From positions 1 through 45,250 of IMG/VR virus record IMGVR_UViG_3300020478_001444: a DNA stretch of 45,250 bases; one strand, 5' to 3'. This DNA is from a virus. The stretch's first letter is position 1; every line of letters begins with the position of its first letter. Below, one piece after another: positions 1 to 31,675 of this stretch. The position numbers and the translations under genes were made by a program. The notes under the pieces were generated by a model, which worked only from the letters and a program-made list of their open reading frames with translations, did no database searches and was not told the DNA's origin.

Positions 1-349
1 CTAAAAAACCATCAGTCATTTCTGCGCCTAAATTATCAGTATAATCAATTACGATTGGACCTTCACAGGGGCCTACAGCTGACGCAGGAAAAGTAAAATT
101 TTCAGTCGTTACTCTTAGTTTTGTTTCTGCATTTTTTCGTAATCCATATATGATTGCATGTAAAGCACTTGTTCCGCTAGATGTTGCTATTACAGCCTTA
201 TCATCAGATATTTTGAGCATTTCTCTTGCTCTCTTTTCTAATTCTTGTACAGCCCATCCATAGTTAGCCCATTGATTTGCTTTTTCTGCATTAGTTAAAT
301 ATGTAGCAAATTGTTGATAATCAAATGATTTAGCTTGAATAAAACTCAT
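1..349 (-). CDS. DegT/DnrJ/EryC1/StrS aminotransferase, N-terminal part (runs off window)
   Basis: Only the first 116 residues are inside the window; the gene continues past base 1. The motif SSGTSALHA (residues 57-65) followed by a TTENFTFPAS stretch is the phosphate-binding and early active-site region of PLP-dependent sugar aminotransferases of the DegT/AHBA-synthase family, which put an amino group on nucleotide-linked keto-sugars. The catalytic lysine would lie outside the window, so activity cannot be judged. The ATG overlaps the TGA of the upstream gene (ATGA), consistent with translational coupling at the end of the leftward sugar operon. A second DegT homologue lies at 5694-6746. Confidence 0.85.
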   Translation of the reverse strand, partial: MSFIQAKSFDYQQFATYLTNAEKANQWANYGWAVQELEKRAREMLKISDDKAVIATSSGTSALHAIIYGLRKNAETKLRVTTENFTFPASAVGPCEGPIVIDYTDNLGAEMTDGFL

Positions 350-984
350 TTACTAACTTTCTCTATAAGTTCTAAAATATGTTCAGCAGTATCTTTTACT
401 AATACTGTAAGACCATGACACTCATTTACACAATGTAATATAACCCACTCTTTATTTTCTTCTAAAAATTCATTAATAGCAGGAACTAATTCAGCACCAT
501 ATTTCATTGTATCATGAAAAACTAAATATTTTCGTGCTTTATTCCCATGAAGTTTTAATTCTTGTGATAATTGGTCATAAGTATGATCTGTATCAAAAAA
601 TATTGAATCACATGATGGTAATTCTGTTTTTAAAGTATCCTCTTGTACAAATTTCCAATCTATTAAATTTTCAGATGCTATTTCTGTTACTTCATCAATA
701 TCTGCGCCATAATCACTTGGATGATTTATATCAAAAGACCACATACATTTAGCGCATTGTGTAATTAATTTTTTTCTATCTTCACTAACTTCTACTAATC
801 TTTCTTTAGTACCTGCTAAACCATATAAAAATGCCCAAGTTGATACAATACCTCTTGTACCTAATTCCATTATTACATTAGAATCTTGACCTATACCATT
901 AAGAATATCATAATGAAACCACATATCGTTTCGTTTATCTGTTTTATGATAGTTAAATTTTTCTTCAAGTCTTTCAGATATCAT
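346..984 (-). CDS. Class I SAM-dependent methyltransferase-like protein
   Basis: 212 residues. The segment IMELGTRG (about 38-45) looks like the glycine-rich SAM-binding motif I, and DSIFFDTDHTYDQL (about 126-139) resembles the acidic strand and following helix of the Methyltransf_24/cephalosporin-hydroxylase-type fold. A conserved-looking FHDT follows. The substrate cannot be read from sequence; its neighbours (glycosyltransferase-like, NeuD-like, DegT) suggest a sugar or glycolipid. It overlaps the upstream gene by 11 nt and the downstream DegT gene by 4 nt, so it is part of one polycistron. It could be a catalytically diverged member, since motif I is short of glycines. Confidence 0.65.
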   Translation of the reverse strand: MISERLEEKFNYHKTDKRNDMWFHYDILNGIGQDSNVIMELGTRGIVSTWAFLYGLAGTKERLVEVSEDRKKLITQCAKCMWSFDINHPSDYGADIDEVTEIASENLIDWKFVQEDTLKTELPSCDSIFFDTDHTYDQLSQELKLHGNKARKYLVFHDTMKYGAELVPAINEFLEENKEWVILHCVNECHGLTVLVKDTAEHILELIEKVSK

Positions 985-1774
985 TTACATTAGCCCATCT
1001 AACTACTTCTTCCCAATCAATATACGGAGAAACATATCCTTCTTGAAAATGACAAGTCCAACCTGGAATAGGACAAAAAGCATTTACTTGTTTAAAAGCT
1101 CTCCAAGTCCAACCATCATCACAAAATACTGATGCTCTAATAACTTCCATTTTATAGTTCATCCATGTAACTTTATCTGCTACTAATGTAAATGTTGCAC
1201 TGGGTACAGAACGAAGATGGGAATTAGGTCCAAGTATTACTTTACAATTTCTACTCTTATCAAGTGTATATCTATCAGGGTAATCATATGGTACAAAAAA
1301 TCCTTTATATCCAGAGTTATAAAGATTTTTTATAAGCGCAATAGCATTTGGTCTATGCAAATAATCATCTTCGCATAAATAAAATATATCATCATCTTCT
1401 CCTTGCTCTATTTCTTCATAAAGAAGTTCAAAAAGAGCTTTAGAGCAATTGATTCTTACTGGATGTAAATCTGGGAAGGGATGAGTATCAAAACCTGGAC
1501 AATAATCTAATGGAGGAACTTCTTTAAATTCAAAATCTTTTGTTTTTATAGTATTTTGCATCCATGATTGTGTCTTAGCACTTACTGCATCACAGAAAAT
1601 TCTTATACGATCATTATCATCTATACCTGAATTATTTACAGATAACCAAGTAGCTTTAAGAATATCTTTTTTTGTATAGTTACCTATCCTATATGATTCT
1701 TTTGTTATATCTTCATTAGTACTACCCGCACTTTTAGCTGATTCATTTGCTCTAAAATATACATTTAACTTCAT
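974..1774 (-). CDS. Putative GT-A type glycosyltransferase
   Basis: 266 residues without a signal peptide or membrane segment. The core holds YLCEDDYLH (CEDD at 134-137), which resembles the DXD metal/nucleotide-sugar site of GT-A glycosyltransferases, preceded by a Rossmann-like first half with IRIFCDAVS. The C-terminal half is rich in Trp/Phe and has the segment CDDGWTWRAF, which could be the acceptor side. The ATG overlaps the stop of the NeuD-like gene upstream (ATGA). I infer transfer of a sugar onto the same glycan that the flanking acyltransferase, methyltransferase and DegT enzymes modify. The exact GT family is not certain. Confidence 0.6.
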   Translation of the reverse strand: MKLNVYFRANESAKSAGSTNEDITKESYRIGNYTKKDILKATWLSVNNSGIDDNDRIRIFCDAVSAKTQSWMQNTIKTKDFEFKEVPPLDYCPGFDTHPFPDLHPVRINCSKALFELLYEEIEQGEDDDIFYLCEDDYLHRPNAIALIKNLYNSGYKGFFVPYDYPDRYTLDKSRNCKVILGPNSHLRSVPSATFTLVADKVTWMNYKMEVIRASVFCDDGWTWRAFKQVNAFCPIPGWTCHFQEGYVSPYIDWEEVVRWANVNDI

Positions 1775-2406
1775 GGTTTATCCGTTATTATTCCACTTTG
1801 AAAAAATTTTCTATCTGATATATTATCAAATACTACTTCGCCTGCACTTACTGTATTATCATTACCCATTGAGATTTTTGTAACTACAACAGAACTAGAC
1901 GCTAATACATTATTGTCACCCATAGATGAGTCTCCTAATATTTGTGACTGAGGTAATAATACATTATTAAAACCTAATTTTACATTGTGATGAACAATAG
2001 ATGCAGCGTTCATAAGATTAAAATTTCCTATTTCTGCATTAGCCCTTACAAGTGTACCCCATAAAAATACATTACCTATTCCGTATGATGCTAATGGTGA
2101 TATATTTGTAGATTCAGACATAACATTCGGAAAATGTTTATCATTTACTTGATACTTTTTAGAAAAAATTTCGATGAATTTTTGTCGCCACTTTTTAACA
2201 CCTGTAGCTAGTATAAATGCGGCATCTTTAGGATAATTAAATCCTTTTTCATTTCCCTCAGTATCAATTAATATAGGGTTATCAAGCTTGGATATGTATA
2301 TATATCCTTCAAATAATCCATATTCAGAAGCATTTCCTTGTAAAAAAACTTCTGAATATACTTCTTCTGCAAAGTTACCTGCGCCTAAAATATAAATTGG
2401 ATTCAT
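1771..2406 (-). CDS. NeuD/PglD-like sugar O- or N-acyltransferase
   Basis: 211 residues with the two-domain layout of the NeuD family: an N-terminal nucleotide-sugar-binding Rossmann-like part starting IYILGAGNFAEEV, then imperfect hexapeptide repeats from about residue 100 (GIGNVFLWG, ANAEIGNFN, ASIVHHNVKLG, ILGDSSMGDN, VVTKISMGNDN) that form a left-handed beta-helix. The pair HH in SIVHHNVKLG corresponds to the catalytic His region of PglD/NeuD. The family acetylates bacillosamine or sialic acids with acetyl-CoA. Its place next to DegT and glycosyltransferase-like genes is typical of surface-sugar loci, so an amino-sugar acyl transfer is likely. Confidence 0.8.
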   Translation of the reverse strand: MNPIYILGAGNFAEEVYSEVFLQGNASEYGLFEGYIYISKLDNPILIDTEGNEKGFNYPKDAAFILATGVKKWRQKFIEIFSKKYQVNDKHFPNVMSESTNISPLASYGIGNVFLWGTLVRANAEIGNFNLMNAASIVHHNVKLGFNNVLLPQSQILGDSSMGDNNVLASSSVVVTKISMGNDNTVSAGEVVFDNISDRKFFQSGIITDKP

Positions 2407-2726
2407 CTAATTGACCTAAATAATTTTTCATAGTGCAAACCAGTTAATTTTAATACTAACTTAATATTAATTTGTTTTTTATTCTTTATTTTTTCCTTAC
2501 TGAAGATTATACAGGGTATTTTAGTATAATTTTTTGTCTTTAGCAACTTCAAAATAAAATATCTAGTTCCTCCTAATCTTATAATATTTTTATTATTTAC
2601 TAGAAGATGATTTTTAATACCATTATTTTTAATATCATTGTACCATCTATTAACTGAATGAAATTCAAATTTAGAATTTTCAGTTTTTAATTTACATAAT
2701 TCAATATCTTCCTTATAAAAGTACAT
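2403..2726 (-). CDS. Small ParB/sulfiredoxin-fold-like protein
   Basis: 107 residues from the ATG that overlaps the preceding stop codon (TAATG); an in-frame TTG two codons upstream is less likely. The middle part, with IKNHLLVNNKNIIRLGGTRYF and a following IPCIIF strand, has the pattern of ParB-like nuclease (Srx-fold) domains: a strand, a G-x-R turn and a helix. Such small ParB-like proteins also occur in surface-polysaccharide loci, with unclear roles. The end is very basic (KEKIKNKKQINIK). It is coupled to the NeuD-like gene downstream by a 4-nt overlap. Family assignment rests on pattern only. Confidence 0.45.
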   Translation of the reverse strand: MYFYKEDIELCKLKTENSKFEFHSVNRWYNDIKNNGIKNHLLVNNKNIIRLGGTRYFILKLLKTKNYTKIPCIIFSKEKIKNKKQINIKLVLKLTGLHYEKLFRSIR

Positions 2727-3220
2727 TACCAATACTTTTTAAAATAATTAATAGTAACTCTAGTTGATTTATCCCAGTGTCCGTAAGTATGCCAAGTTAC
2801 ATTATTCTGCCCACAAAAAGTAAATGCTCTATTTGGTTTCCATGTAATAACTTTTTCTATTTGTTTTTGCTTATTATACAAAATAGTTCCAGTTGCATAG
2901 CGAGGTGCTAAGTATACTACCGTTGAAAGTATCTTATAAGGTGCTTCATCATGAATTGGAAATATAAAACCATTTGTACAAATATTTACTTCAGCTAAAC
3001 TTTCTAAAGTTTTATAAGGTCTATGATTTGGGAAATTTTTTGTAAGATATTCTTCAGTAAACACACTATCAAAATAATCTTTAAGTTTTTTATCTTTTAT
3101 TACTGTATGATTATTCTGTGTTTTTTTAATAGACTCAAGGTACTCTATGCAATACCAAAAAGTATTTTCATCAAAAAAATTATCTATTATATGGTGTTTC
3201 CAAGGTTCTGTATAAAACAT
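2726..3220 (-). CDS. 2OG-Fe(II) oxygenase-like protein
   Basis: 164 residues. The segment FPIHDEAPYKILSTVVYLAP contains the proximal iron ligands (H90 and E92 or D91) in the style of prolyl-4-hydroxylase-like oxygenases, and WHTYGHWDKSTRVTINYF carries the distal His (H144) and the 2-oxoglutarate-binding Arg (R154). The fold is the double-stranded beta-helix. The substrate is unknown; the sugar genes directly downstream make a glycan or lipid possible. The gene starts 14 nt after the 3' end of the tmRNA coding piece, with GGTGG as a possible ribosome-binding site. It is one of nine such oxygenases in the window. Confidence 0.75.
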   Translation of the reverse strand: MFYTEPWKHHIIDNFFDENTFWYCIEYLESIKKTQNNHTVIKDKKLKDYFDSVFTEEYLTKNFPNHRPYKTLESLAEVNICTNGFIFPIHDEAPYKILSTVVYLAPRYATGTILYNKQKQIEKVITWKPNRAFTFCGQNNVTWHTYGHWDKSTRVTINYFKKYW

Positions 3221-3234
3221 AATAAAAATACCAC

Positions 3235-3550
3235 CAATTCTGTTGCTAGGCCGGTGGCCCGCCCCGAGAAATTAAGCGGCTAGCGCATAATCCTCATATG
3301 CAAAGTTATCGTTTGCGTTTATTTAATTCGACCTATTAGGCGGTCATCCCTGTCTCTCCAGTTACTTTTACTACACCTGTCGATCCTAGTTCGCCCCCAT
3401 AATAAGCACACCAACCAGGCCTAGTTGAATAAGAGTTACGTTTTTACTTGCGCTACCAAGCAGGAGGCCTTGACTCTCTGTGCTTATGGTGGAGGCGTCG
3501 GGTACTGCCCCCGAGTCCAGTATGTCTATTTTGTTTCCTTCTTCGAGACA
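3235..3550 (-). ncRNA. ssrA: Circularly permuted two-piece tmRNA, alphaproteobacterial type
   Basis: Read on the minus strand, the acceptor piece comes first (about 3550-3487) and ends CGCCTCC-A-CCA; an 88-nt intervening segment follows (3486-3399); the coding piece then starts GGGGGCGAACTAGGATCGAC (from 3398). GGGGGCG pairs with CGCCTCC over seven pairs, including the G3-U70 wobble that marks alanyl-tRNA synthetase substrates. The tag frame at 3272-3316 encodes ANDNFAYEDYALAA and a TAA stop. The intervening segment has an 8-9 bp inverted repeat at its ends (ATAAGCACA at 3402-3410, TGTGCTTAT at 3479-3487) and a paired AGGCCT inside, fitting a precursor loop that is excised. The T-loop (GGCAGTA within a TCGGG/CCCGA stem) is not the usual TTCGANT. 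The region is visibly GC-richer than its neighbours. The mature outer ends (near 3235 and 3550) are estimates. It is probably co-transcribed with the WYL_2-like gene from the promoter at 3829-3857. Confidence 0.93.
3272..3316 (-). other. tmRNA proteolysis-tag reading frame
   Basis: Fifteen codons starting at the resume codon GCA and ending in TAA. They encode A-N-D-N-F-A-Y-E-D-Y-A-L-A-A. The ANDN start and ALAA end match what is known of alphaproteobacterial tags, and the C-terminal ALAA is the ClpXP recognition end in other bacteria. The segment just upstream (AATAAACGCAAACGAT) resembles the usual context of tmRNA resume codons. Because the frame encodes a complete canonical tag, the gene looks functional rather than decayed. 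Confidence 0.92.
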
Positions 3551-3802
3551 CTATTCAATAAATAAATCTTCTTCTATGTCAAACATCTTTGGCATACCTT
3601 CACAAGTGCGCCAATTAAATACACGAAAATCATCAGATTCAAGATCCCAGACAAGTTCCATACCATCTGGATATTTTTGTTCTTGACCTGCTCCTATTAT
3701 TTTAGAAGCTACAAAAGAACTTGGCAAATCATCAATTCTTGAAAACACCATAGTTCTATCTTCGCCATTCTTCTTTTTAAAAACGCCTTTGTATGCTTTC
3801 AT
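3551..3802 (-). CDS. WYL_2/DUF2693-like small SH3-barrel protein
   Basis: 83 residues from the ATG at 3802, chosen because GGAG lies 6 nt upstream; an ATG four codons earlier is also in frame. The pattern FKKKNGEDRTMVFSRID followed by MELVWDLESDDFRVFNW matches the small Sm-like/SH3 beta-barrel phage family known as WYL_2 (DUF2693), whose role is unknown but which may bind nucleic acid. It is the first gene behind a consensus-like promoter, and its stop codon abuts the acceptor piece of the tmRNA, so the tmRNA precursor is probably cut from this transcript. Confidence 0.6.
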   Translation of the reverse strand: MKAYKGVFKKKNGEDRTMVFSRIDDLPSSFVASKIIGAGQEQKYPDGMELVWDLESDDFRVFNWRTCEGMPKMFDIEEDLFIE

Positions 3803-3828
3803 ATTAATCTCCATAATTGATTATTTTA

Positions 3829-3857
3829 ATTATAGGGAAAAAATAAGTTAAAAGCAA
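3829..3857 (-). promoter_or_regulatory. Sigma70-type promoter for the WYL_2-like gene and tmRNA
   Basis: On the minus strand, TTGCTT (3857-3852), a 17-nt spacer and TATAAT (3834-3829) lie 26 nt before the start at 3802. This is an internal promoter inside the leftward operon and would give separate control of the WYL_2-like gene, the tmRNA and the downstream sugar genes. The TTGC form of the -35 box recurs at 33463, 36266 and 41686. Confidence 0.7.
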
Positions 3858-3863
3858 TTTTTA

Positions 3864-4562
3864 TTAGAATTTGAATAGATTATTTGGAGACGCATTAGCA
3901 ATTATTTTTCTAGTATGATCTGATTTTAAACCTGTTATTTGAATTGCTGGTCTTGGATGGCTACTTGCATTTGCGGTTGCATGTGGAACATTTGGCCAAT
4001 CGAATATATGTGCTTCACCAGCTTTCCAACGATCATATGTAAAATTGCCATACATATAGAATTGACCAGGTTCCCAATCATCTAAAAAAATTGTAATACG
4101 ACATACTCGTTCTGGATCTTCAGGGCAACGGTCCCATAACTTATCAATGTGATAGTTAAACATTTGCCCCATCATTTGTACATGACAACGAATTTTAAAC
4201 TCATTATCATTTCCTATAATTCCAAAATAATCAATCATGGATTTAAGAACAGGATAATCATCAATTTCGTCTTTCATATTAGTTAGCATAAGTTTTTTAG
4301 GATCACCACCACCTTGTATAATATCATATTCTTCTTGTTTTAACATTGGTGATTCTTTTGGAGAATTTCCAAAAAATTTTCTTGTTTGCCAATTAATAGA
4401 TTTTGTTGATTCTTTGACTAACTTATCTCTTTCTTCTTTCCATCTACTAGGATTTTCAAAACATCCTAATACCGTAAACCAATCTCCTTTTTTGTCTATA
4501 ATATTATTATCAAAATGATAATTACTTCTAGCTTTTGTCCATTCCCAACTACTTATAGACAT
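3864..4562 (-). CDS. 2OG-Fe(II) oxygenase (aspartyl/asparaginyl beta-hydroxylase-like)
   Basis: 232 residues. FNYHIDK supplies the H-x-D pair (H138, D140); VPHATANASSHPRPAIQITG supplies the distal His (H194) and the Arg that binds 2-oxoglutarate (R204). The intervening RVCRITIFLDDW segment is a core strand of the double-stranded beta-helix. Together these point to a cupin-like Fe(II)/2OG hydroxylase; the substrate is unknown. Its ATG overlaps the stop of the bS21 gene by one base, so it follows bS21 in the same transcript. A ribosomal-protein or peptide substrate is possible from that linkage, but this is inference only. Confidence 0.75.
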   Translation of the reverse strand: MSISSWEWTKARSNYHFDNNIIDKKGDWFTVLGCFENPSRWKEERDKLVKESTKSINWQTRKFFGNSPKESPMLKQEEYDIIQGGGDPKKLMLTNMKDEIDDYPVLKSMIDYFGIIGNDNEFKIRCHVQMMGQMFNYHIDKLWDRCPEDPERVCRITIFLDDWEPGQFYMYGNFTYDRWKAGEAHIFDWPNVPHATANASSHPRPAIQITGLKSDHTRKIIANASPNNLFKF

Positions 4563-4837
4563 TATTTTTCTTTTTTAGGGGGATATTTTTTACGATTAGT
4601 ATTAGGTTTCTTTTTTCTAAACTGATTTCGTTCTTCTCGAATAAATTTTTGTTCTAGTTGTTGTCGTTTTTTCAACCATCTAGCACGTCCAGCTCTCTTT
4701 GCTTCACGACGTTTTTCACTTTTAGTTTTATATGCAGCTTTTTCTCTTATATCTTTAAAAAACCCTTCTTCATGTAGTTTTTTATGCAGTAAGCGATATG
4801 CTTTGTTTACGTCATTATTACGAACAAAAATCTTCAT
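4562..4837 (-). CDS. rpsU: Phage-encoded ribosomal protein bS21
   Basis: 91 residues from the ATG at 4837, which overlaps the stop codon of the radical SAM gene (ATGA); this start also gives the canonical bS21 N-terminus MKIFVRNNDVNKAYRLL. The core (1-60) has the family hallmarks: an alternating basic helix with EKAAYKTKSEKRREAKRAG followed by RARWLKKR. The tail (61-91) is an extra, very basic extension; the usual protein is about 65-70 residues. bS21 binds the 30S platform near the anti-Shine-Dalgarno region and helps initiation. Viral bS21 genes are known, and it is thought they replace or bias the host copy. Its partner here may be the tmRNA about 1 kb downstream. Confidence 0.93.
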   Translation of the reverse strand: MKIFVRNNDVNKAYRLLHKKLHEEGFFKDIREKAAYKTKSEKRREAKRAGRARWLKKRQQLEQKFIREERNQFRKKKPNTNRKKYPPKKEK

Positions 4838-5697
4838 AAGACAGTTTTTTCTGTTAATGTCTCTGGTTTTGTCGGGCACATCGCGCAAATCCAATCTTCT
4901 TTCTTGTACAAAAATTCCTCTAATTTTTTATCAGTAATATTCGCTGAGACACCTTCATATTCTAGATAAGGTTCCCAATCTAAATCATTATTTAAGTTAA
5001 ATTTTTTTAAAACATCTTGAAGGTAAGCAATAGGAGGACATTTCCAAAGGTTATACTTATAAAGTTGTAAACTATTTTTTACTATACATTGTTTCCAACT
5101 TTGTTTTGGATTATTATCAGTAAAAGGTTTCATAAACTCACCTTTATTTTTATAGGTAATAGTCCAATGTGCTTCATCAGTTTCTGGATTTATATCATTA
5201 ACTGATCTAACTTCCATGTAAATATTATTAACTCTATATATAGATTTTAGCCATGTCTTTTCGACTAGCTTAAATTTAAAACTATTATTAAGATGATACA
5301 TTTGTTCTTTAAATTTGTAAAGATATTTTTCATCTTTTTTACTATGCAAGGATACAATTAATCTAATTTGATTTTCATTTAAACAATCGTATAACCAATC
5401 AATATTTTTTTCTAAAAGTAATCCATTAGTAAATAATAATAACTCTGTATTAGGAAATAGTTTACGATAACTATAACATATATTCTTTAACTCTTTATTT
5501 AAAAATGGTTCTCCACCTACAAGTTGTATTTTACCAAAAGCTACACGATCTACCCATGGTTCTGCCCATTTTACTAATGTATCTTCTGTAAAATGTTCAT
5601 GAATACCGTAGTTAGAATAGTGATTACATCCTGTACATTTTAATTGGCACGAATGTGTAACATGAATATCTAAGCGTTTATGTGGTGCCTGTATCAT
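4834..5697 (-). CDS. Radical SAM protein
   Basis: 287 residues. THSCQLKCTGCNHY carries the CX3CX2C cluster-binding motif (C17, C21, C24), and LVGGEPFLNKEL is the GGE motif that contacts SAM. The C-terminal third has additional cysteines (WKCPPIAYL and WICAMCPTKP), which could hold an auxiliary iron-sulfur cluster as in SPASM/twitch proteins. The gene lies between a DegT aminotransferase and bS21 with 4-nt overlaps on both sides. The substrate cannot be read from sequence; small-molecule or peptide modification are both possible. Confidence 0.88.
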   Translation of the reverse strand: MIQAPHKRLDIHVTHSCQLKCTGCNHYSNYGIHEHFTEDTLVKWAEPWVDRVAFGKIQLVGGEPFLNKELKNICYSYRKLFPNTELLLFTNGLLLEKNIDWLYDCLNENQIRLIVSLHSKKDEKYLYKFKEQMYHLNNSFKFKLVEKTWLKSIYRVNNIYMEVRSVNDINPETDEAHWTITYKNKGEFMKPFTDNNPKQSWKQCIVKNSLQLYKYNLWKCPPIAYLQDVLKKFNLNNDLDWEPYLEYEGVSANITDKKLEEFLYKKEDWICAMCPTKPETLTEKTVL

Positions 5698-6746
5698 ACA
5701 ATTTTTTTAATCCTAGATTTTAAATCATCTATATCCATAAACGCATGGCAAGGAAGCTCAATTGCCCTTTCATAGAACTCCAAAGCTCGTGGAGAATTTA
5801 AACAGTTTGATTCATATACGCCTTTTGCTAGAATTTTCTGTGACTTTAATTTATTAATTAGATTTTGTTTTTCATCTTTTTCTGGTAAAATTATAAAACG
5901 ATGGAATATGTAATTTTCTCCAAGCAATGTTTTATAGGGAAGATTGTTAAGATAGAAAGTAGCAATTTCTACTTTTTTCTTTCTGTAGGAGTGTTGCTCA
6001 ATTAATTGCATATCTTTACTTACTACCGCTGCTGCCACAGTATCTAAATATGATTTTGTACCTACGATATTACTTACAGTTCTATGAGAACATACCTTTT
6101 TTAATCTTTGATATATTTCAGAATTATTCGTTGCAATTGCGCCGCCAGCCCCTAAACTAGCAGGGGACTTAGTAAAATCAAATGAAAAACATACTATATC
6201 TGAATATGAGCCTAATTTATATTTATATGGTTCATTCATTGTAAAAGAAGGAGCTGCATCTTCTATTATAGATATTCCTTTATCTTTACAAATACCAGAG
6301 ATTTTTGAAACATCTACTATATTTCCAAACCCATGTACTATAAGAATAGCTCTAGGTTTATACTTTAGTATCATTTCAAATAAAAGTTCTAAATTTACAT
6401 TACCTGTTTCATCTATATCACAAAACTGTATATTACAACCTACAAATTTAGGAGCATTAGCAATAGCTCTCCAACCGTATGCAGGAACTATTATTGTATC
6501 ACCGATATCACAAAGAGTTTGAAATGCTATTTGTAAAGAATCTGTACAACAATTAGTAAATAACCAATTATTAATACCTGTATACTTTATACATTGTTCT
6601 TCTAATTTTTGATGTATTGGGGAAGGATCTCTACCATCTTCTGATTGAAAAGGGTAATCCATAGCCTTGTTAATAGCTTTTAAATATTCTATTCTATGCG
6701 CGGTTAATCGTTCGTTATGGGGTATACAAGCTATTGATTTAGGCAT
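5694..6746 (-). CDS. DegT/DnrJ/EryC1/StrS family aminotransferase
   Basis: 350 residues, close to family length. FTNCCTDSLQIAF (about 63-75) is the phosphate-binding region; IIEDAAPSF (about 160-168) provides the PLP-pyridine Asp; and SFDFTKSPASLGAGGAI gives the Schiff-base Lys (K193). The family transfers an amino group to a keto-sugar nucleotide, often in surface-glycan synthesis. The start overlaps the thioredoxin-like gene by 8 nt. It probably works with the sugar genes at 1-2406, although radical SAM, bS21 and tmRNA genes lie between. Confidence 0.88.
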   Translation of the reverse strand: MPKSIACIPHNERLTAHRIEYLKAINKAMDYPFQSEDGRDPSPIHQKLEEQCIKYTGINNWLFTNCCTDSLQIAFQTLCDIGDTIIVPAYGWRAIANAPKFVGCNIQFCDIDETGNVNLELLFEMILKYKPRAILIVHGFGNIVDVSKISGICKDKGISIIEDAAPSFTMNEPYKYKLGSYSDIVCFSFDFTKSPASLGAGGAIATNNSEIYQRLKKVCSHRTVSNIVGTKSYLDTVAAAVVSKDMQLIEQHSYRKKKVEIATFYLNNLPYKTLLGENYIFHRFIILPEKDEKQNLINKLKSQKILAKGVYESNCLNSPRALEFYERAIELPCHAFMDIDDLKSRIKKIV

Positions 6747-7026
6747 TGAGACCTGGAAGAGATTGTATCCAAGTGATTATCTCTTCCGTGGAATATTTAC
6801 CTACACGATGAGTTTTAAAAAAATTATCTTTGAATACCATAAAAATAGGTAATCTATACCCTCCAGGTTTTTGAGGAATATGTCTATGTAGACGAGAATC
6901 ACTTTCATCAGCTAGTTCAATTTCTACTGATGGAATAGCTTTTTTTATTGCATCAAGCTGCATATTTATATATACTGAATTATCGGAATCGGCAAAAGCA
7001 ACTCCGACAATTTTATGTGTCGCCAT
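6739..7026 (-). CDS. Thioredoxin-fold-like protein without CXXC
   Basis: 95 residues. The order of strands and the segment GGYRLPIFMVFKDNFFKTHRVGKYSTEEIITWI look like the second half of a thioredoxin fold, with LP at the usual cis-proline position and a terminal amphipathic helix. The first part (HKIVGVAFADSDN...AIKKAIPSVEIELADE) would be the first beta-alpha-beta unit. No CXXC or any cysteine is present, so it cannot act as a dithiol redox protein; a binding role is more likely. Overlaps both neighbours. Confidence 0.45.
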   Translation of the reverse strand: MATHKIVGVAFADSDNSVYINMQLDAIKKAIPSVEIELADESDSRLHRHIPQKPGGYRLPIFMVFKDNFFKTHRVGKYSTEEIITWIQSLPGLNA

Positions 7027-7210
7027 TGTGCGCCCTCACTTCATTAACAACTTCTTCTAAATTAGTTTCTAGGGCTGTTAATCTCTCGTGTATATCATGT
7101 ATTTGTTGAGATAGGTAACGAATGTCTCCTCCAAGATCATTTGCTAATTCTCGGAGTGCTTCTTTTTGTTCTTTAGCTTCGAAACGTACATATTTTTCAG
7201 TTGCATACAT
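7013..7210 (-). CDS. Small coiled-coil protein, unknown function
   Basis: 65 residues, almost wholly helical with heptad-like spacing (LRELANDLGGDIRYLSQQIHDIHERLTALETNLEEVVNEV), so a short parallel coiled coil is likely. It is the first gene of the leftward operon, directly behind a strong promoter. The ATG falls at the predicted transcription start, so the message would be leaderless; no Shine-Dalgarno sequence is seen. I do not recognise a family. Confidence 0.6.
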   Translation of the reverse strand: MYATEKYVRFEAKEQKEALRELANDLGGDIRYLSQQIHDIHERLTALETNLEEVVNEVRAHNGDT

Positions 7211-7216
7211 ATTACT

Positions 7217-7245
7217 AATATATAGAAAAGTTACAATGAAGTCAA
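7217..7245 (-). promoter_or_regulatory. Strong sigma70-type promoter of the leftward operon
   Basis: On the minus strand, TTGACT (7245-7240), a 17-nt spacer and TATATT (7222-7217). Only 6 nt separate the -10 box from the ATG at 7210, so transcription would start at or within a base or two of the start codon, giving a leaderless mRNA. It heads the whole 7210-to-1 operon. Confidence 0.75.
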
Positions 7246-7307
7246 CAAAAAAGTCGCATCAAACTAAAAATGATGTTGCATAATAATATAAAAAAGGATA
7301 AAATATA

Positions 7308-7511
7308 ATGAATCGACCAAGATTACCCTTTGTAAAACAGTATTTTATTGATTTAACAAACCAAGGTAACGAACAAGCAGAAGAATTAATAATAGAATAT
7401 AACGATATTAAAGATACAAACGGAGAGTTTTTAGCTGGTCGTTTTTTAATTGAAGTATATATTGAAACCCAAAAGACTTTAGAGGAAAGCTTTAATGCGA
7501 GGACCGTTTGA
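7308..7511 (+). CDS. Small acidic protein, unknown function
   Basis: 67 residues, acidic, likely helical (TNQGNEQAEELIIEYNDIKD and IETQKTLEESFNA). AAAGGA about 9 nt before the ATG is a good ribosome-binding site. It opens the rightward gene set; the 97-bp gap to the leftward operon is very AT-rich and holds promoter-like sequences for both directions (TTGCAT and AATATAAAA upstream of this gene). The 3' end overlaps the next small gene. No family recognised. Confidence 0.55.
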   Translation: MNRPRLPFVKQYFIDLTNQGNEQAEELIIEYNDIKDTNGEFLAGRFLIEVYIETQKTLEESFNARTV

Positions 7512-7662
7512 ATACGCAGTAGATGCAGAAGATCAAGAAGATATAATAAGAAAAGAATTCACAGTTTATCGTCGTGTTGGAGATAAGATTTATATTACTA
7601 CAACTACAAGACGATATTCAGAAAACGACTATATAGATTCACACGAAACTATTGTATTATAG
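7495..7662 (+). CDS. Small protein, unknown function (55 residues)
   Basis: An ATG at 7495 opens 55 codons ending in TAG, starting MRGPFEYAVDAEDQED and rich in beta-prone residues (EFTVYRRVGDKIYITTTTRRY). It overlaps the preceding gene by 17 nt, with GAGGAAAGC just upstream as a possible ribosome-binding site. The next gene begins 8 nt after its stop behind AGGAG. The tight spacing, sensible composition and lack of any competing frame support a real gene, although no family is recognised. Confidence 0.6.
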   Translation: MRGPFEYAVDAEDQEDIIRKEFTVYRRVGDKIYITTTTRRYSENDYIDSHETIVL

Positions 7663-7670
7663 GAGTTAAA

Positions 7671-8003
7671 ATGCCAAAGAAAGCTGTACAGGTAAATTTA
7701 ATTAAGGGTTATTCCCCTTGGGCAAAAAGATATACTATTAATCAAGCTAAAAATGTAGCTCGTTGGAATCCTTGGTTAGCTCATGAGTGGATGGAAGAAG
7801 CTGCTAGAGGTTTATCAATAGACCATTTTGATTTAATTGAGTATTATGATAAAGTGGCTGATGAAATTAATTTAAATTGGAAAAGGAGAACCCGTTATCG
7901 TTTCTATAATCAAAAAGAATTTTGGAATGGTCTTCCTCCAAAAATGATTAGAAAAATTATTCCAGATGATGACTACGACATTACTTCAAATGAAGAAGAG
8001 TAA
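7671..8003 (+). CDS. Small protein, unknown function
   Basis: 110 residues, rich in Trp and charged residues (GYSPWAKRYTINQAKNVARWNPWLAHEWMEEAARGL), with an acidic C-terminal end. AGGAG sits 5 nt before the ATG. It looks like a compact helical protein; no motif is recognised. A 60-bp gap with a promoter follows. Confidence 0.6.
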   Translation: MPKKAVQVNLIKGYSPWAKRYTINQAKNVARWNPWLAHEWMEEAARGLSIDHFDLIEYYDKVADEINLNWKRRTRYRFYNQKEFWNGLPPKMIRKIIPDDDYDITSNEEE

Positions 8004-8020
8004 ATCAATTAATTTTCAAC

Positions 8021-8049
8021 TTGCGCAAACTCAAAATCTGTGCTACTTT
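8021..8049 (+). promoter_or_regulatory. Possible sigma70-type promoter
   Basis: TTGCGC (8021-8026), a 17-nt spacer and TACTTT (8044-8049), 14 nt before the ATG at 8064. The -10 box is weak, but the spacing is exact and the site sits in one of the few intergenic gaps. Confidence 0.45.
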
Positions 8050-8063
8050 ATAGGTGTTAAAAC

Positions 8064-8447
8064 ATGCGTTTTAAGATGACGTCAAAGAATCCGTTTCGTA
8101 ACTTCGCTAGAAATTTAAGGCGAATTACAATTGCAGATATAACTGCTGAAGAAAAAGATACTTTGTATCATGATCTTTGGTGTGAAATATCACCAAAACT
8201 TTCAGAAACAGAAAGATATCTTAATTCTTCGCCAGCTTATTCTTCACGTTGTGATCACTGGAATCAAATTAATTCAACGCTTGATTCTATTGTTCCAGTA
8301 TCAAATATAAAAAATCCTTATCTTAGACTCAAACAAGAGTTTCGAGATGCAATGGCTAAAACATCAAATGAACTCTTCGTCAGAAGTGTGTCTAAATCAC
8401 TAATGTGGTTCCAAGTCACTCCTCATAAGGACGACTGGGTCACGTAG
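8064..8447 (+). CDS. Protein of unknown function
   Basis: 127 residues beginning MRFKMTSKNPFRN; a second ATG four codons in is an alternative start. Basic N-terminus, then a mostly helical body (DITAEEKDTLYHDLW, PYLRLKQEFRDAMAKTSNELF). No membrane segment or recognisable motif. First gene after the promoter at 8021-8049; the stop overlaps a GTG of the next frame. Confidence 0.55.
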   Translation: MRFKMTSKNPFRNFARNLRRITIADITAEEKDTLYHDLWCEISPKLSETERYLNSSPAYSSRCDHWNQINSTLDSIVPVSNIKNPYLRLKQEFRDAMAKTSNELFVRSVSKSLMWFQVTPHKDDWVT

Positions 8448-8464
8448 TGACAAAGGAGAATAAC

Positions 8465-8848
8465 GTGCATATAACAAAAAATAAAGCGAAAAAATTAGTT
8501 TGGAAAGTTATATCGTCAATGCCTATTGATGTATTTGATGATGAAGAAGGTTCTATATGGGAAGTTGGCTCTTATGAACTTAGAAACCCTCGACCGGAGG
8601 GAGACTACGAGGGGTCACGCGAAATTGGCGCGGCTAACCTTGTAAGCGCGTTTAATCTTTTACATCAAAAAATGTTAATTGCAGAATTATCAAGTGACGA
8701 TGGTTTTAGTGACTGTGGCGAAGAGGCACTTGATATGTTTAAGGATGTTATGGACGATTTTGAAAAAGAAAAATTAATTAGAAAACGACCAGAACATATT
8801 CGTGAAAACTTTAGAGTAATAGAAGGATCAAATGCAGCCGCAAACTAA
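8465..8848 (+). CDS. Protein of unknown function
   Basis: 127 residues from GTG at 8465, chosen because AGGAG lies 6 nt upstream; an in-frame GTG at 8447 overlaps the previous stop but has no ribosome-binding site. The protein is acidic (VFDDEEGSIWEVGSYEL, SSDDGFSDCGEEALDMFKDVMDDFEKEK) and looks alpha/beta. No family recognised. Its end overlaps the next gene by 17 nt. Confidence 0.55.
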   Translation: MHITKNKAKKLVWKVISSMPIDVFDDEEGSIWEVGSYELRNPRPEGDYEGSREIGAANLVSAFNLLHQKMLIAELSSDDGFSDCGEEALDMFKDVMDDFEKEKLIRKRPEHIRENFRVIEGSNAAAN

Positions 8849-9068
8849 TAGTGAATTAAAACAAGAATTTGAAAAAGTAGTAGATTTACTTATTCAGATT
8901 GAATCTGCTCGCGAAGCAATATCGTCCCGTCTTAAAGATATAAAATCTGAATACGGTATAGAAATTCCCGTTGCACGTCGTGTTGCTAATGTTATGAGAA
9001 AGAACTCCCGCGCTGAAGAAGAAGAAAAATGGAATGAGTTTAATGAGCTTTTAGATAGTGTTACATAA
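8832..9068 (+). CDS. Small helical protein, possibly DNA-binding
   Basis: 78 residues. A long first helix (SELKQEFEKVVDLLIQIESAREAISSRLKDIKSEYGI) followed by IPVARRVANVMRKN and an acidic tail. The size and layout recall small dsDNA-binding transcription helpers of T4-like phages (DsbA type), but this is only a resemblance. It could equally be a short coiled-coil protein. It overlaps the next hydrophobic ORF. Confidence 0.45.
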   Translation: MQPQTNSELKQEFEKVVDLLIQIESAREAISSRLKDIKSEYGIEIPVARRVANVMRKNSRAEEEEKWNEFNELLDSVT

Positions 9069-9201
9069 GCTACTCATATTCTTACTCATATTATTAGTTA
9101 TTGAAATAATGATAGCATTATGGCCTTACGCTCTCGAAGCATTTTTTATAATGTATCTTGACGGAATAATGCCTATATGCACAGGACTTGGATTATTATA
9201 A
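9058..9201 (+). CDS. Possible 47-residue membrane peptide
   Basis: A GTG at 9058 opens 47 codons ending exactly one base before the ATG of the next gene. The product is one long hydrophobic stretch (HKLLIFLLILLVIEIMIALWPYALEAFF) followed by a short C-terminal part with a single Cys. It would insert as one or two membrane helices. The start has no clear ribosome-binding site, so translation would depend on coupling to the preceding gene, which it overlaps by 11 nt. It fills an otherwise empty gap. Confidence 0.4.
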   Translation: MLHKLLIFLLILLVIEIMIALWPYALEAFFIMYLDGIMPICTGLGLL

Positions 9202-9606
9202 ATGCAAACTTTTCTTCCTTATGATGATTTTGTTTTATCCTTAGATTGTCTTGACTATAGACGTTTAGGTAAACAAAGAGTTGAATCTATGCAATTACTT
9301 AATGCTATGAAAACAACAGCTGGCTGGTATAATCATCCTGCTACTAAAATGTGGCGTGGATACGAAAAAGCACTTACAGAATATATGAATCTTTCTATTA
9401 TATTATGGAAAGATCGCGGATATAAAAATACAATGAAAATTATAGATGTAGGTGATCTAGATGAAGATGATTATCCACCCTGGTTTGGTGATGAAAAAGT
9501 TCATGCTAGTCATAGATCAAATCTACTAAGAAAAGATCCTGAATTTTATGGAAAATATGGTTGGAAAGAATCTTCAGATTTGCCTTATTTCTGGCCTGTT
9601 AAATAA
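9202..9606 (+). CDS. Pyr_excise/MSMEG_6728-like protein (putative DNA glycosylase family)
   Basis: 134 residues with the conserved set LPYDDFVLSLDCLDYRRLGKQRVESMQLL, then NHPATKMWRGYEKAL and HASHRSNLLRKDPEFYGKYGW. This combination (RLGKQRVE, HPATKMWRGYE, SHRSNLLRKDP) is typical of a phage and bacterial family annotated as pyrimidine-dimer DNA glycosylase-related, after T4 endonuclease V; catalytic activity of this branch is not established. A role in DNA repair is a reasonable guess. Its last 33 bases overlap, tail to tail, the minus-strand SGNH gene. Confidence 0.65.
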   Translation: MQTFLPYDDFVLSLDCLDYRRLGKQRVESMQLLNAMKTTAGWYNHPATKMWRGYEKALTEYMNLSIILWKDRGYKNTMKIIDVGDLDEDDYPPWFGDEKVHASHRSNLLRKDPEFYGKYGWKESSDLPYFWPVK

Positions 9607-10236
9607 CATTTGTGCAGCCCTTAAATGAGAAGTTGGTCCCGCGTGAGAACTATCATTAGCAGGATCTTTATGTTTTTCTAAATCAAAATGAATTGGTATA
9701 TGATTATCTGTTAATTCTTTTAAATTAGGATATAGATGAGGGAAACAACATACATGACTATGTTTTATATTATTACGTTCACATAATAATATTTGTTTAG
9801 CTACTGCTCCTTCCCATAAATTTTGTACTATTTTTTCATCAGAGAAGTATAACATTCCTGCTGCGTGCCATGCTGCTTGATGTTTGTCTGTATTTTTTCT
9901 TTGGCTATTTAAAAGTTGTTGAGATAATATCCAGTTACGATAATATTTTTTATTTTCTAAAACGTGATTAGCTACTATAAACCCTTGCCAGTGGCTACTT
10001 CTATAGTTCCAAGTTTGCCATCTATATTCACTTGTATGCCCGATTAGTATCAAGTCAGGTTTTAACTTGACAGCCTCCTCAACCTGTGATAATATTAAGT
10101 ACTCTGATGCACCACTTTGAGAGAGGTTTTTAATTTTTGCATTTAGTTTTTTAGCTAATATATGAGCATATATTTGGTCTTGATTATCAAGTCCTTCACC
10201 ACGAGTAAAGGAATCTCCACACGCTATTATGAACAT
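9574..10236 (-). CDS. SGNH/GDSL-type hydrolase
   Basis: 220 residues. Block I is ACGDSFTRGEG (Ser9 nucleophile, near the start), an oxyanion Gly/Asn pair is plausible in SQSGASEYL, and the C-terminal NDSSHAGPTSH supplies the Asp-x-x-His pair. No signal peptide is seen, so it would act in the cytoplasm or on the virion. SGNH enzymes hydrolyse or transfer acyl groups on sugars and lipids. It is the only minus-strand gene within the rightward region: it overlaps the preceding gene tail to tail and the next gene head to head by 8 bp, so its promoter must lie inside the next gene. Confidence 0.8.
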   Translation of the reverse strand: MFIIACGDSFTRGEGLDNQDQIYAHILAKKLNAKIKNLSQSGASEYLILSQVEEAVKLKPDLILIGHTSEYRWQTWNYRSSHWQGFIVANHVLENKKYYRNWILSQQLLNSQRKNTDKHQAAWHAAGMLYFSDEKIVQNLWEGAVAKQILLCERNNIKHSHVCCFPHLYPNLKELTDNHIPIHFDLEKHKDPANDSSHAGPTSHLRAAQMLFNRPEIRQI

Positions 10237-10822
10237 TGAAGATAGTATTTTTGTTGTTGGAAATTCTTGGTCAATACCAAGTTATGAAGCATCAAAGTCT
10301 GCATTTGATTTACTAAACCTTACTAATCGTTGGGAACATCCTGGAATCACATTAGATGCTCAATCTGAGTATATCATATCAAAAAGACTTGTCAAGGCTT
10401 TTAAAGTTATTTGGTTAATTGGGCATCATCACCGTGCAGATCCTAAAGGAGATGGAAGTTATCTAGTTCCATACGATTGGGGAGAAGGTAATATCTGGGG
10501 TAAAATGACAAGAGATATTTGGTTTAAAAAATTTACTAAAATGCCTTGGTACTGGAGAACTAATGCATTATTTATTAAAGCTGCTATAGAAGGATGTAAA
10601 CCCGATAACTTATTATTAATTCCAATTTATCGTCCTAATATATTAGAACATGATTTTTTAAAAGATAATCCTTGTATTTGGTGGGAGTATTTTGGTGATT
10701 ATAGAAAAGACTATCCTGATGGCAGAGGACATACTAATCAGATAGGTCATACTATTTTTGCAATGAAATTAAAAGAAGAGATTCAGAATAGATGGAAGAT
10801 TACATTAACGGAGACTGGCTAA
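10229..10822 (+). CDS. SGNH-hydrolase-like protein with altered block I
   Basis: 197 residues. VVGNSWSIPSYE resembles SGNH block I with Asn in place of Asp (GNSW for GDSx), and DYPDGRGHTNQIGH gives the C-terminal Asp/His pair. The central WLIGHHHRADPKGDG and LLLIPIYRPN strands fit the flavodoxin-like SGNH fold. It lies head to head with the minus-strand SGNH gene; their start codons overlap within 8 bp. Its 3' end overlaps the following oxygenase gene by 31 nt. It probably acts on the same class of acylated substrate as the other three SGNH proteins here. Confidence 0.65.
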   Translation: MNIEDSIFVVGNSWSIPSYEASKSAFDLLNLTNRWEHPGITLDAQSEYIISKRLVKAFKVIWLIGHHHRADPKGDGSYLVPYDWGEGNIWGKMTRDIWFKKFTKMPWYWRTNALFIKAAIEGCKPDNLLLIPIYRPNILEHDFLKDNPCIWWEYFGDYRKDYPDGRGHTNQIGHTIFAMKLKEEIQNRWKITLTETG

Positions 10823-11343
10823 ACTCAATCTCAATTAATTTTAATAAAACAATTGCAAAAAATGCAGAAAAGATTATTAAAAAGTGTGAACCTAAAATTC
10901 GTAATTTCGGCCATCAATGGTATGCTAATTTTGCTGGTTATAAAGTTATTTTATTAAAACCGGGTGAAGGTTATGAATGGCACTTCGATAATATGAATTA
11001 TATTAATGGAGAACTTTCTTGTCCTAGACCTGAACGATATTGGTCTGAAATTATATATTTATCAGATGGACAACCTTTTCAAGTAGGTAATTGGAATCCT
11101 AATGGGGAAAGAGTAGAACAAACAGAGTTTAGCGCACCAGAACCAACTGAGATATTAGCTACTATATATCCAGAACCTGGAAAGGTTGTTATAACTCCTT
11201 GTTTTATGGTACATAGAATTAAACCAATGATAACTAAAAACCGTTGGGCAATAGTTACTTTTATTGATAACCCTTATTATAAAGATAAAACTAAAAAAGA
11301 TTTAGAGAATACATATAAAAGATATTTTAATGTGGATATATAA
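10792..11343 (+). CDS. 2OG-Fe(II) oxygenase
   Basis: 183 residues. GYEWHFDN gives the H-x-D pair (H64, D66), and CFMVHRIKPMITKNRWAIVTF the distal His (H141) and 2OG-binding Arg (R151). Strand order fits a small double-stranded beta-helix hydroxylase. The substrate is unknown. It overlaps both neighbours (31 nt and 14 nt), so it belongs to the same transcript as the SGNH-like protein. Confidence 0.78.
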   Translation: MEDYINGDWLNSISINFNKTIAKNAEKIIKKCEPKIRNFGHQWYANFAGYKVILLKPGEGYEWHFDNMNYINGELSCPRPERYWSEIIYLSDGQPFQVGNWNPNGERVEQTEFSAPEPTEILATIYPEPGKVVITPCFMVHRIKPMITKNRWAIVTFIDNPYYKDKTKKDLENTYKRYFNVDI

Positions 11344-11662
11344 TAGAATTGAAAAGTTAGGAGCACGCTATAATAAGTCTTTACAAAACTGTATGCATGC
11401 GTCTTTTTTAGTTGCAAGTGAATTATTAATACCAGCACAACATAATATTTTATTATGCACTTTTCAATACGAAACTAAATCACATATGGTTGCTGCAAGA
11501 AATAAACTTTATTTTGATCTTTGGGTTGGAGTTATTATTAATTTAGATTATAAAATACAACATAAATTTTCTTTTTTCGATGAAGAAAAATTTAATAGAT
11601 TTTATGTAAAAGATAGACCTAGAAATATAAAATTAATTACTATAGAGTATTTAAATGGATAA
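11330..11662 (+). CDS. Protein of unknown function
   Basis: 110 residues, alpha/beta, with several Cys and His (NCMHASFLVASELLIPAQHNILLCTFQYETKSH). No motif is recognised. It lies between an oxygenase and the carbamoyltransferase with 14-nt overlap upstream, so it is probably part of the same modification operon. Confidence 0.5.
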   Translation: MWIYNRIEKLGARYNKSLQNCMHASFLVASELLIPAQHNILLCTFQYETKSHMVAARNKLYFDLWVGVIINLDYKIQHKFSFFDEEKFNRFYVKDRPRNIKLITIEYLNG

Positions 11663-11671
11663 GGATTTACT

Positions 11672-13045
11672 ATGAATATAATAGGAATTAGTGCTTATCA
11701 TCATGATTCAGCTGCTGCTCATATACAAAATCATCTTATTAAAGCAGCTTCTCATGAAGAAAGATTTAGCAGAAAAAAGTATGATAGTAATTTTCCTGTT
11801 AAAACTTTAAGATGGATTAGAAAACAACAAGAACAAGTTGATGCTGTAGTTTTTTATGAGAAAAAAGGTTTTAAAGAACGACAAGCTATTAAAAGAGATA
11901 TTAAAGCAGCTATACCTGGAAAATATCCAATAGAATTTATGGAGCATCATGAATGTCATGCTATGAGTGCTGTACTTACTACAGACTGGGAAGATTGTGC
12001 TGTTATGGTTGTTGATTCTGTTGGAGGAAGATATGCTACTAGTTTAGGAGTATATGAAAATAATAATATTACTTGGATTAAAAGATTTGAATATCCTAAT
12101 AGTTTAGGGCTATTTTATTCGACAATTACTAGATTTTTAGGATTTACTCCCCTAATGGATGAAGAAAAAATTATGTCTGCGGCAGCATATGGGGAACCTA
12201 AATGGACAGAGTATGCTAAAGAAAAAATTATTACAACAGAAATAGGAGATTATACATTACTTCAAGATTTACGAAGAGGAATTGGAGTAGGTGCTCTAGA
12301 TTGGGATGTTGCAGCTTCTGCTCAAGAAATACTACAAGAATGTTTACTTAATCTAGCTGGTTGGCTACATAAAGAAACAGGAAAATTTAAATTAGCATAT
12401 GCAGGAGGAGTAGCATTAAATTGTGTTGCTAATACACAGTTAATACGTTATACTAATTTTAATGATATTGCTATACAACCAGCTGCAGGAGATGCAGGAA
12501 CATCTCTGGGTGCTGCTGCACTAATAGAAAGACCCTTATGGGAAGGGCCATTTTTAGGCTATAATGATTCTCTTAATCAAAATCCAGAAGATATTGCTTT
12601 TAAGCTACTACAAGGTGAAGTAGTTCCCGTAATTAATGGTAGAGCAGAATTTGGCCCGCGTGCTTTAGGAAATAGAAGTCTTTTATGTTTACCTACTGAT
12701 GTTAATATTACAAAATTAAATAATATTAAGAAAAGAGTTAATGACAATTGGCGTCCGTATGCTCCAATTTGTTTAGATTATATAGCAGAAGATCTATTTG
12801 ATATATATCAACCTTCCTATGATATGCTTTTTATAGCCTATACAGGAACAGATAAATTTAAAACACATGATGATACTGCAAGATTACAATTAGTAAATAA
12901 TAAAAGTAATGCTTTTTTAAATAAAATTTTAGAAATTACTACTAGTAAAGGTGCGCCTATTCTTATAAATACTAGTTTAAATGCGAAAGGAAAACCCATT
13001 GTTAATAGTGTAGAAGATTTTAAGAATGAGGTAAATCTTTTCTAA
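11672..13045 (+). CDS. NodU/CmcH-type O-carbamoyltransferase
   Basis: 457 residues; family members are usually about 550-600. The N-terminal TsaD/Kae1-like domain starts IIGISAYHHDSAAAH and contains EHHECHAMSA (carbamoyl-adenylate/iron His motif) and MVVDSVGGR; GGVALNCVAN and QPAAGDAGTSLGAA follow. The C-terminal domain has EFGPRALGNRSLL and ends ILINTSLNAKGKPIV, where carbamoyladenylate synthesis takes place. The reaction uses carbamoyl phosphate and ATP to carbamoylate a hydroxyl, as on Nod factors or cephalosporins. The shorter length comes from a compact middle and an early C-terminal end. AAGGA precedes the ATG. Carbamoylation of a glycan or lipid by the phage is the likely role. Confidence 0.9.
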   Translation: MNIIGISAYHHDSAAAHIQNHLIKAASHEERFSRKKYDSNFPVKTLRWIRKQQEQVDAVVFYEKKGFKERQAIKRDIKAAIPGKYPIEFMEHHECHAMSAVLTTDWEDCAVMVVDSVGGRYATSLGVYENNNITWIKRFEYPNSLGLFYSTITRFLGFTPLMDEEKIMSAAAYGEPKWTEYAKEKIITTEIGDYTLLQDLRRGIGVGALDWDVAASAQEILQECLLNLAGWLHKETGKFKLAYAGGVALNCVANTQLIRYTNFNDIAIQPAAGDAGTSLGAAALIERPLWEGPFLGYNDSLNQNPEDIAFKLLQGEVVPVINGRAEFGPRALGNRSLLCLPTDVNITKLNNIKKRVNDNWRPYAPICLDYIAEDLFDIYQPSYDMLFIAYTGTDKFKTHDDTARLQLVNNKSNAFLNKILEITTSKGAPILINTSLNAKGKPIVNSVEDFKNEVNLF

Positions 13046-13722
13046 TGATTAATATGGATATTCCTCATAATAAAAAATATAAGTATACTTATGATATGAA
13101 GGTTGATACTCTTCCTACAGGTAGAACATACTTTACTCCTGATGGTGATTACCCATCTATTACAACAGTGCTTGGTAAAACAGCAAATAATCCTTGGTTG
13201 CAGGCTTGGAAAGATAGAGTTGGAGAGGAAGAAGCTGCTAGAATTTCTAAAGAAGCAACTGATCGTGGAACTTTAGTACATGAATATGCAGAAAGATATT
13301 TTAATGGAGAAGATATACATCGAGATTTAGTACAACAAAATTATGATGTAGTTCAAATGTCTAAGGATTTAATTAAAATAGCAGAGACAGGGGTAGAGGA
13401 GATTTGGGGACAAGAACAAATTTTATGGAGTAATAAGTATAAATATGCTGGTAGGTGTGATATGGTAGGTATTTGGAAAGGAAAACCTACAATAATTGAT
13501 TTTAAAACTTCTAAAAAAACAAAGTATATTAAACAAATAAAAGATTATTTTATTCAATGTTGCGCTTATGCTGTTGCACATAATGAAATGTTTGGTACAG
13601 GAATTAGAGATGTTGTTATATTAATTACAGTTGAAGGAAAAGATCCACAATGTTTTGAAACTAGTGCTGTTCCTTTTTTATCTGATTTAAAATTAAGAAG
13701 AAATCAATATGAAAAATGTTAA
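13045..13722 (+). CDS. PD-(D/E)XK nuclease, RecB/Cas4-like exonuclease
   Basis: 225 residues. The N-terminal YPSITTVLGKT and ATDRGTLVHEYAERYF (motif with the early His/Glu) precede the catalytic core YAGRCDMVGIWKGKPTIIDFKTSKK, which has the Asp, the D-x-K (DFK) and the following Lys; QCCAYAVAH is motif IV. This is the layout of phage and RecB-like single-domain nucleases that process DNA ends. The ATG overlaps the preceding stop (TAATG). The role is probably recombination or host-DNA degradation. Confidence 0.85.
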   Translation: MINMDIPHNKKYKYTYDMKVDTLPTGRTYFTPDGDYPSITTVLGKTANNPWLQAWKDRVGEEEAARISKEATDRGTLVHEYAERYFNGEDIHRDLVQQNYDVVQMSKDLIKIAETGVEEIWGQEQILWSNKYKYAGRCDMVGIWKGKPTIIDFKTSKKTKYIKQIKDYFIQCCAYAVAHNEMFGTGIRDVVILITVEGKDPQCFETSAVPFLSDLKLRRNQYEKC

Positions 13723-14215
13723 ACAAATTCCCCTACCTATTTTAGAGACAGACATAGATAAAATTAAATTTTTATATACTAATGGAAAAAATTCTTTATT
13801 TAAACAAAGATATGATAAGAGTCCAGGATGGAAAAGTTTTGATATAATAAAAAATTATAGTTCTTCACCTTTATTAAAAAAATTACCTTGTATTAGTAAT
13901 TGGATTAAAATTCTTAAAGAACATACGAACATACGAGTGGTTAAACATTCTTATATCTCTGTTTTAGAAGTAAAAAGCTCTATTGATTGGCATACAGATT
14001 CTGATAATAAAGATTTTAATAAATCTATTATAACCGCAATAAGTACTAAAGATAGTTTTATAGAATTTAAAGATAAAAGATATTTTTATAAAGATGGTTA
14101 TAGTTATATTATAAGATCAGGAAACGAACATAGAGTATTAAATTTAAATAATGATATAAGAATAACATTATGCACTACACCAGAGGAGGATTACGATGTT
14201 AACGTGGCTGCATGA
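13709..14215 (+). CDS. 2OG-Fe(II) oxygenase-like protein (AspH-like)
   Basis: 168 residues. SIDWHTDSDN holds the H-x-D pair (H95, D97) and GNEHRVLNLNNDIRITLC the distal His (H141) with a following Arg (R151). It is clearly related in layout to the protein at 27360-27890 (WHKDSDN ... RHRVINNSKQIRV). The substrate is unknown; AspH-like enzymes hydroxylate Asp/Asn side chains in peptides. It overlaps the nuclease gene by 14 nt. Confidence 0.72.
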   Translation: MKNVKQIPLPILETDIDKIKFLYTNGKNSLFKQRYDKSPGWKSFDIIKNYSSSPLLKKLPCISNWIKILKEHTNIRVVKHSYISVLEVKSSIDWHTDSDNKDFNKSIITAISTKDSFIEFKDKRYFYKDGYSYIIRSGNEHRVLNLNNDIRITLCTTPEEDYDVNVAA

Positions 14216-14312
14216 AATAATTTTTGAAATAAAATTTTGGCTTAAAAAACGTAAGTTATCTAAACTTGATCCTTATATTTATGAAATGCCAAAAGATGAC
14301 GAAAAGAATTAA
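14196..14312 (+). CDS. 38-residue amphipathic peptide
   Basis: An ATG at 14196 behind a strong GAGGAGGA ribosome-binding site opens 38 codons. The product starts with a hydrophobic/amphipathic helix rich in Trp and Phe (LTWLHEIIFEIKFWLKK), then a charged tail (PKDDEKN). It may lie on the inner membrane. It overlaps the preceding gene by 20 nt and the next by 17 nt. The strong ribosome-binding site is the main support. Confidence 0.6.
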   Translation: MLTWLHEIIFEIKFWLKKRKLSKLDPYIYEMPKDDEKN

Positions 14313-17429: not shown

Positions 17430-17432
17430 CAG

Positions 17433-31668: not shown

Positions 31669-31675
31669 GGTAGTA

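Follow-up and report, generated by a model that had tools for sequence, protein, structure and literature searches.

A two-piece, alphaproteobacterial-type tmRNA gene, probably functional, in an uncultured marine tailed phage

The stretch of DNA analysed here (the window) covers all 45,250 bases of an IMG/VR virus record (IMGVR_UViG_3300020478_001444). On its minus strand, positions 3549–3272 hold a circularly permuted (two-piece) tmRNA gene of alphaproteobacterial type, as called with Rfam models and ARAGORN. The elements of this gene and two genes upstream of it are arranged as follows.

3487–3549 (−): acceptor piece; the RF04321 alignment starts at 3549, and the strand CGCCTCC (3497–3491) is followed by the ACCA end (3490–3487)
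3498–3514 (−): T arm, with stem UCGGG/CCCGA and loop GGCAGUA (RF01849 alignment)
3399–3486 (−): intervening loop of 88 nt, presumably excised, that separates the ACCA end from the 5′ acceptor strand
3272–3398 (−): coding piece, beginning with the 5′ acceptor strand GGGGGCG and running as far as the stop codon of the tag (RF04321, RF01849 and 7/7 pairing with the acceptor piece)
3272–3316 (−): tag frame ANDNFAYEDYALAA (3316–3275) and stop codon UAA (3274–3272), from ARAGORN
3227–3271 (−): remainder of the coding piece on the 3′ side, which includes the conserved GCAACAGAA element (RF01849 alignment, model end 355 at 3227)
3551–3814 (−): ORF of 87 aa immediately upstream of the tmRNA on the same strand; two relatives have it at 94% and 87% identity
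4562–4894 (−): bS21-like ribosomal protein gene (Pfam PF01165, 33.3 bits against a cut-off of 27), also present in two other viral contigs, G001 and G007

The covariance search and ARAGORN run that had been set beforehand as a check, in a preliminary description of this DNA, both call a permuted tmRNA. RF01849 (alpha_tmRNA; gathering score 50) aligns over its full length, model positions 1–355, to 3609–3227 (−) with 131 bits (E = 1.2e-35), RF04321 (tmRNA_permuted; gathering score 47) aligns in full to 3549–3272 (−) with 123 bits, and ARAGORN reports a permuted tmRNA with the tag ANDNFAYEDYALAA. The acceptor piece comes first, as had been described, and leads through the ACCA end and the 88-nt loop (3486–3399) to the coding piece, which begins at 3398. 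The seven-pair acceptor stem of that description was found in full (GGGGGCG/CGCCTCC, 7/7 pairs, G3-U70 among them), as was its intact tag frame, with GCA (Ala) as the resume codon, an ALAA end and the stop codon UAA. By score, piece order, stem and tag frame, the membership of the window tmRNA in the alphaproteobacterial permuted family RF01849 is confirmed at the level of sequence. By contrast, we rejected the claim that the T-loop is non-canonical: GGCAGUA lies one base from the Rfam alphaproteobacterial consensus, GGCgGUA, and is therefore normal for the class. The intervening loop is closed by a long stem in the predicted fold, and relative to shuffled sequences the energy predicted for acceptor piece plus loop does not stand out (z = −1.68).

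The contig that carries this gene is viral and belongs to a marine tailed phage, with genes for a lysozyme, two Rz-like spanins and a tail-fibre-like protein. No terminal repeat was found in the 45,250-base record, which is probably a fragment. The viral contig G001 (34,496 bases), found by the tag pattern and, independently, via a neighbouring gene, is colinear with much of window positions 43–18380 at ~69–87% nucleotide identity, with gaps. The viral contig G007 has in common with the window the bS21-like gene, the 87-aa ORF, the ORF that comes after the tmRNA, and the tmRNA itself, whose tag is identical. The lysozyme and spanin genes, the colinear viral contigs and the RF01849 match together bear out the earlier statement that the gene is phage-borne and of alphaproteobacterial type.

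The bS21-like gene had been placed next to the tmRNA; it is indeed nearby, ~1 kb upstream, but two genes off rather than adjoining. A bS21 gene is present in 7 of 27 tmRNA-bearing viral records, and we do not claim the two as a linked pair. The 87-aa ORF adjoins the tmRNA on the upstream side in both relatives too; neither Pfam nor a tblastn search of the phages collection gave a match for it, and its match to PHROG 1086, of unknown function, is weak. No terminator-like site was found. Nor is a promoter claimed, the number of sites in the promoter scan being equal to that in shuffles; a weak promoter-like site lies at 3851–3823, where the window and G001 are largely identical.

Elsewhere in the window, a tRNA-Cys gene (34914–34988, +) overlaps an ORF (34778–35134), and there are many radical SAM proteins and 2-oxoglutarate or PhyH-type oxygenases (4834–5697, 10792–11343, 16782–17429, 28542–30415, 30671–32401 and 35124–36257). 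A PD-(D/E)XK nuclease-like ORF (13045–13722, +) lies 10 kb from the tmRNA; in the phage Melnitz and several further viral contigs with a tmRNA, the distance between its homologue and that gene is ~0.5–9 kb. The protein encoded at 14462–15562 (+) shares 64% identity with the alpha subunit of the methanesulfonate monooxygenase of the SAR116 phage HMO-2011 (Puniceispirillum phage), and 65% with such a subunit on a viral locus (L096) that itself carries a permuted tmRNA. HMO-2011 was discarded as a tmRNA-bearing relative, as ARAGORN finds no tmRNA in bases 1–49000 of its 55,282.

When compared with G001, the window tmRNA proved 99% identical over 278 bases, with four differences, one being a synonymous change to a tag codon (TAT to TAC). 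In 50-base bins, identity to G001 is 0.96–1.00 inside the tmRNA, whereas in the flanking genes it is mostly 0.5–0.9. This difference, 99% as against mostly 50–90%, fits purifying selection, which appears to be the simpler reading, while recent recombination could account for part of the high identity. The intervening loop is 15 bases long in G007, against 88 in G001 and the window, a difference that is as expected if the loop is cut out. Like the window copy, each of the 18 phage and bacterial copies set beside it has a fully paired (7/7) acceptor stem with G3-U70, and the changes of this stem in distant copies are compensated (GGGGGCG/CGCCTCC, GGGGCCG/CGGCTCC and GGGGGTG/CACCTCC). That several contigs have an identical tag was not taken to show selection on it, because these contigs were found by the tag pattern itself.

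Related genes are widespread among viruses, contrary to the rarity that the preliminary description implied. A search of viral contigs with an acceptor-piece DNA pattern gave at least 120 matches; some of these contigs, being short, could be misclassified bacterial DNA. According to ARAGORN, many of the viral loci fetched contain a permuted tmRNA, and the tags vary. In four of these loci (L045, L052, L074 and L085) the predicted tag is unusually long, at 29 residues (ANDNALSNVTFVDFSAPVTAVNEDFALAA). The window's own tag pattern matched seven viral stretches, with no match in a scan of bacterial genome contigs (genome_contigs) and, in relaxed form, none in 385 sampled alphaproteobacterial genomes. 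Identification of the host by its tag was therefore rejected; a literature search for SAR11 and SAR116 tags gave nothing direct. Among the same 385 genomes, the best DNA match scored 63.5 bits and was confined to a short, conserved part of the acceptor piece. A tree built quickly from 111 tmRNA sequences groups the window copy with those of G001 and G007 and then with other phage copies, the closest bacterial sequence being much further off; deep support in this tree is poor. Permuted tmRNAs are also found in the cultured phages Melnitz, RcXuper, DSS3P8, RcRudolph and vB_EliS-L02.

The gene had also been taken to point to the class of the host. The RNA is of alphaproteobacterial type, but it is a weak host pointer: Melnitz, whose tmRNA is of this type, infects a gammaproteobacterium (PMC9004378), so the type of tmRNA is no proof that the host is an alphaproteobacterium. 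A mild further hint comes from the 64% match to the HMO-2011 methanesulfonate monooxygenase.

A search for SmpB (PF01668), which was positive in 10 of 14 control genomes, gave no match in the window or in 26 other tmRNA-bearing viral records; the host must therefore supply SmpB. The gene could still lie elsewhere in the phage genome, the record being probably partial. Thus, the suggestion that the phage runs its own trans-translation holds as far as the RNA is concerned, which is intact and conserved, but no SmpB was found encoded with the tmRNA, as a self-sufficient system would have it, in this possibly partial record, and the host's is needed.

Taken together, these data make it highly probable that the locus is a working two-piece, alphaproteobacterial-type tmRNA gene of a marine tailed phage, situated near bS21. 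The sequence, structural elements, phage context and conservation were observed directly, and from known tmRNA biology we infer the steps that would follow. Host tRNA-processing enzymes would cleave the precursor at its CCA end and where the coding piece begins (5′ end), leaving two pieces held together by acceptor-stem pairing, and this RNA would be charged by host AlaRS via G3-U70. Host SmpB and EF-Tu would deliver it to ribosomes stalled on broken mRNA, where translation would resume on GCA, add the tag ANDNFAYEDYALAA and end at UAA, and the ALAA end of the tag would direct the product to host ClpXP-type proteases. The phage tmRNA could presumably work only with host SmpB, ribosomes, AlaRS and proteases. 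The likely benefit would be that ribosomes are kept free and amino acids recycled while host mRNA breaks down during infection; during takeover, the phage copy would keep up or increase the amount of tmRNA available rather than supplant the system.

The gene might instead be a host ssrA copy that the phage happened to acquire, perhaps when a temperate ancestor integrated at that gene, and has retained although it does nothing. ssrA is a frequent phage integration site, and prophages are known to contain pieces of it (see the discussion in PMC9004378). However, the window gene is intact with its tag frame and is unusually conserved relative to its flanks, the same neighbours accompany it in three viral contigs, and the acceptor stem and tag frame are already intact in three members. 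Since the tree also puts it among phage copies, with bacterial ones distant, and no bacterial match exceeds about 64 bits, we regard carriage by chance as quite improbable. Assembly of bacterial DNA into a phage contig, raised in the preliminary description as something that would overturn its reading, might be suspected of a gene that is normally bacterial and chromosomal, but the block around the tmRNA is colinear with viral G001 and partly with G007. This common gene order therefore marks a phage-lineage gene and already refutes a chimera, the chance of which we put at close to nil.

It has also to be considered that the phage tag replaces the host tag, a swap raised in the preliminary description, and so redirects, slows or favours the proteolysis of particular proteins, or that the RNA competes for host SmpB. 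The lack of a phage SmpB and the confinement of the tag to viral stretches, with no match in the bacterial scans, would suit such a role; against this, the tag ends in ALAA like ordinary phage and bacterial degradation tags, and bacterial tags are diverse too. This makes a takeover RNA very improbable. We likewise treat as speculative, and improbable, the proposals that a lineage-specific tag reprograms host proteolysis or that the tmRNA joins bS21 and the 87-aa protein as a translation-takeover module.

As a probably working phage tmRNA gene, the window copy is not new in kind, phage-encoded two-piece tmRNA of alphaproteobacterial type having already been published, and it leaves existing knowledge of tmRNA unchanged. 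It adds one more uncultured marine phage lineage with such an RNA, bearing a tag unseen in the bacterial genomes scanned and showing signs of strong conservation, and backs the view that these RNAs are selected in marine phages and reliant on host SmpB. Buchholz and colleagues described a two-piece alphaproteobacterial-type tmRNA in the Methylophilales phage Melnitz, counted two-piece forms as 53 of 133 unique phage tmRNA structures (50 of the 53 being marine or aquatic), and proposed roles in the upkeep of hijacked machinery or in tagging host proteins for degradation (PMC9004378). Huge phages with tmRNA, SmpB and bS21 have also been reported (PMC7162821). Like the window gene, the Melnitz ssrA is phage-borne, permuted and of alphaproteobacterial type, with the same acceptor stem, and the window gene likewise lies in a phage genome, among lysozyme and spanin genes and with colinear viral contigs, rather than in flanking host DNA. 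The two share 76% DNA identity over about half the query, the Melnitz tag ANDNYVPVDYALAA is similar to, yet different from, ANDNFAYEDYALAA, and Melnitz has relatives of the window's nuclease ORF and of the start of its tail-fibre-like protein. The neighbours differ, the window having the 87-aa ORF and bS21; the glutamine riboswitch linked in Melnitz and Mosig, which is not a defining feature, had no Rfam match at the gathering score in the window. ARAGORN finds a permuted tmRNA in each of the Rhodobacter phages RcXuper and RcRudolph, the Roseobacter phage DSS3P8 and the Erythrobacter phage vB_EliS-L02, with other tags and only short DNA similarity to the window; in the regions viewed, these four genes are unannotated. 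Chromosomal alphaproteobacterial two-piece tmRNAs (RF01849) share with the window copy the full-length covariance match and the class-typical T-loop, but differ from it in that their best DNA match is short and limited to the acceptor piece (63.5 bits) and that the relaxed tag occurs in 0 of 385 genomes.
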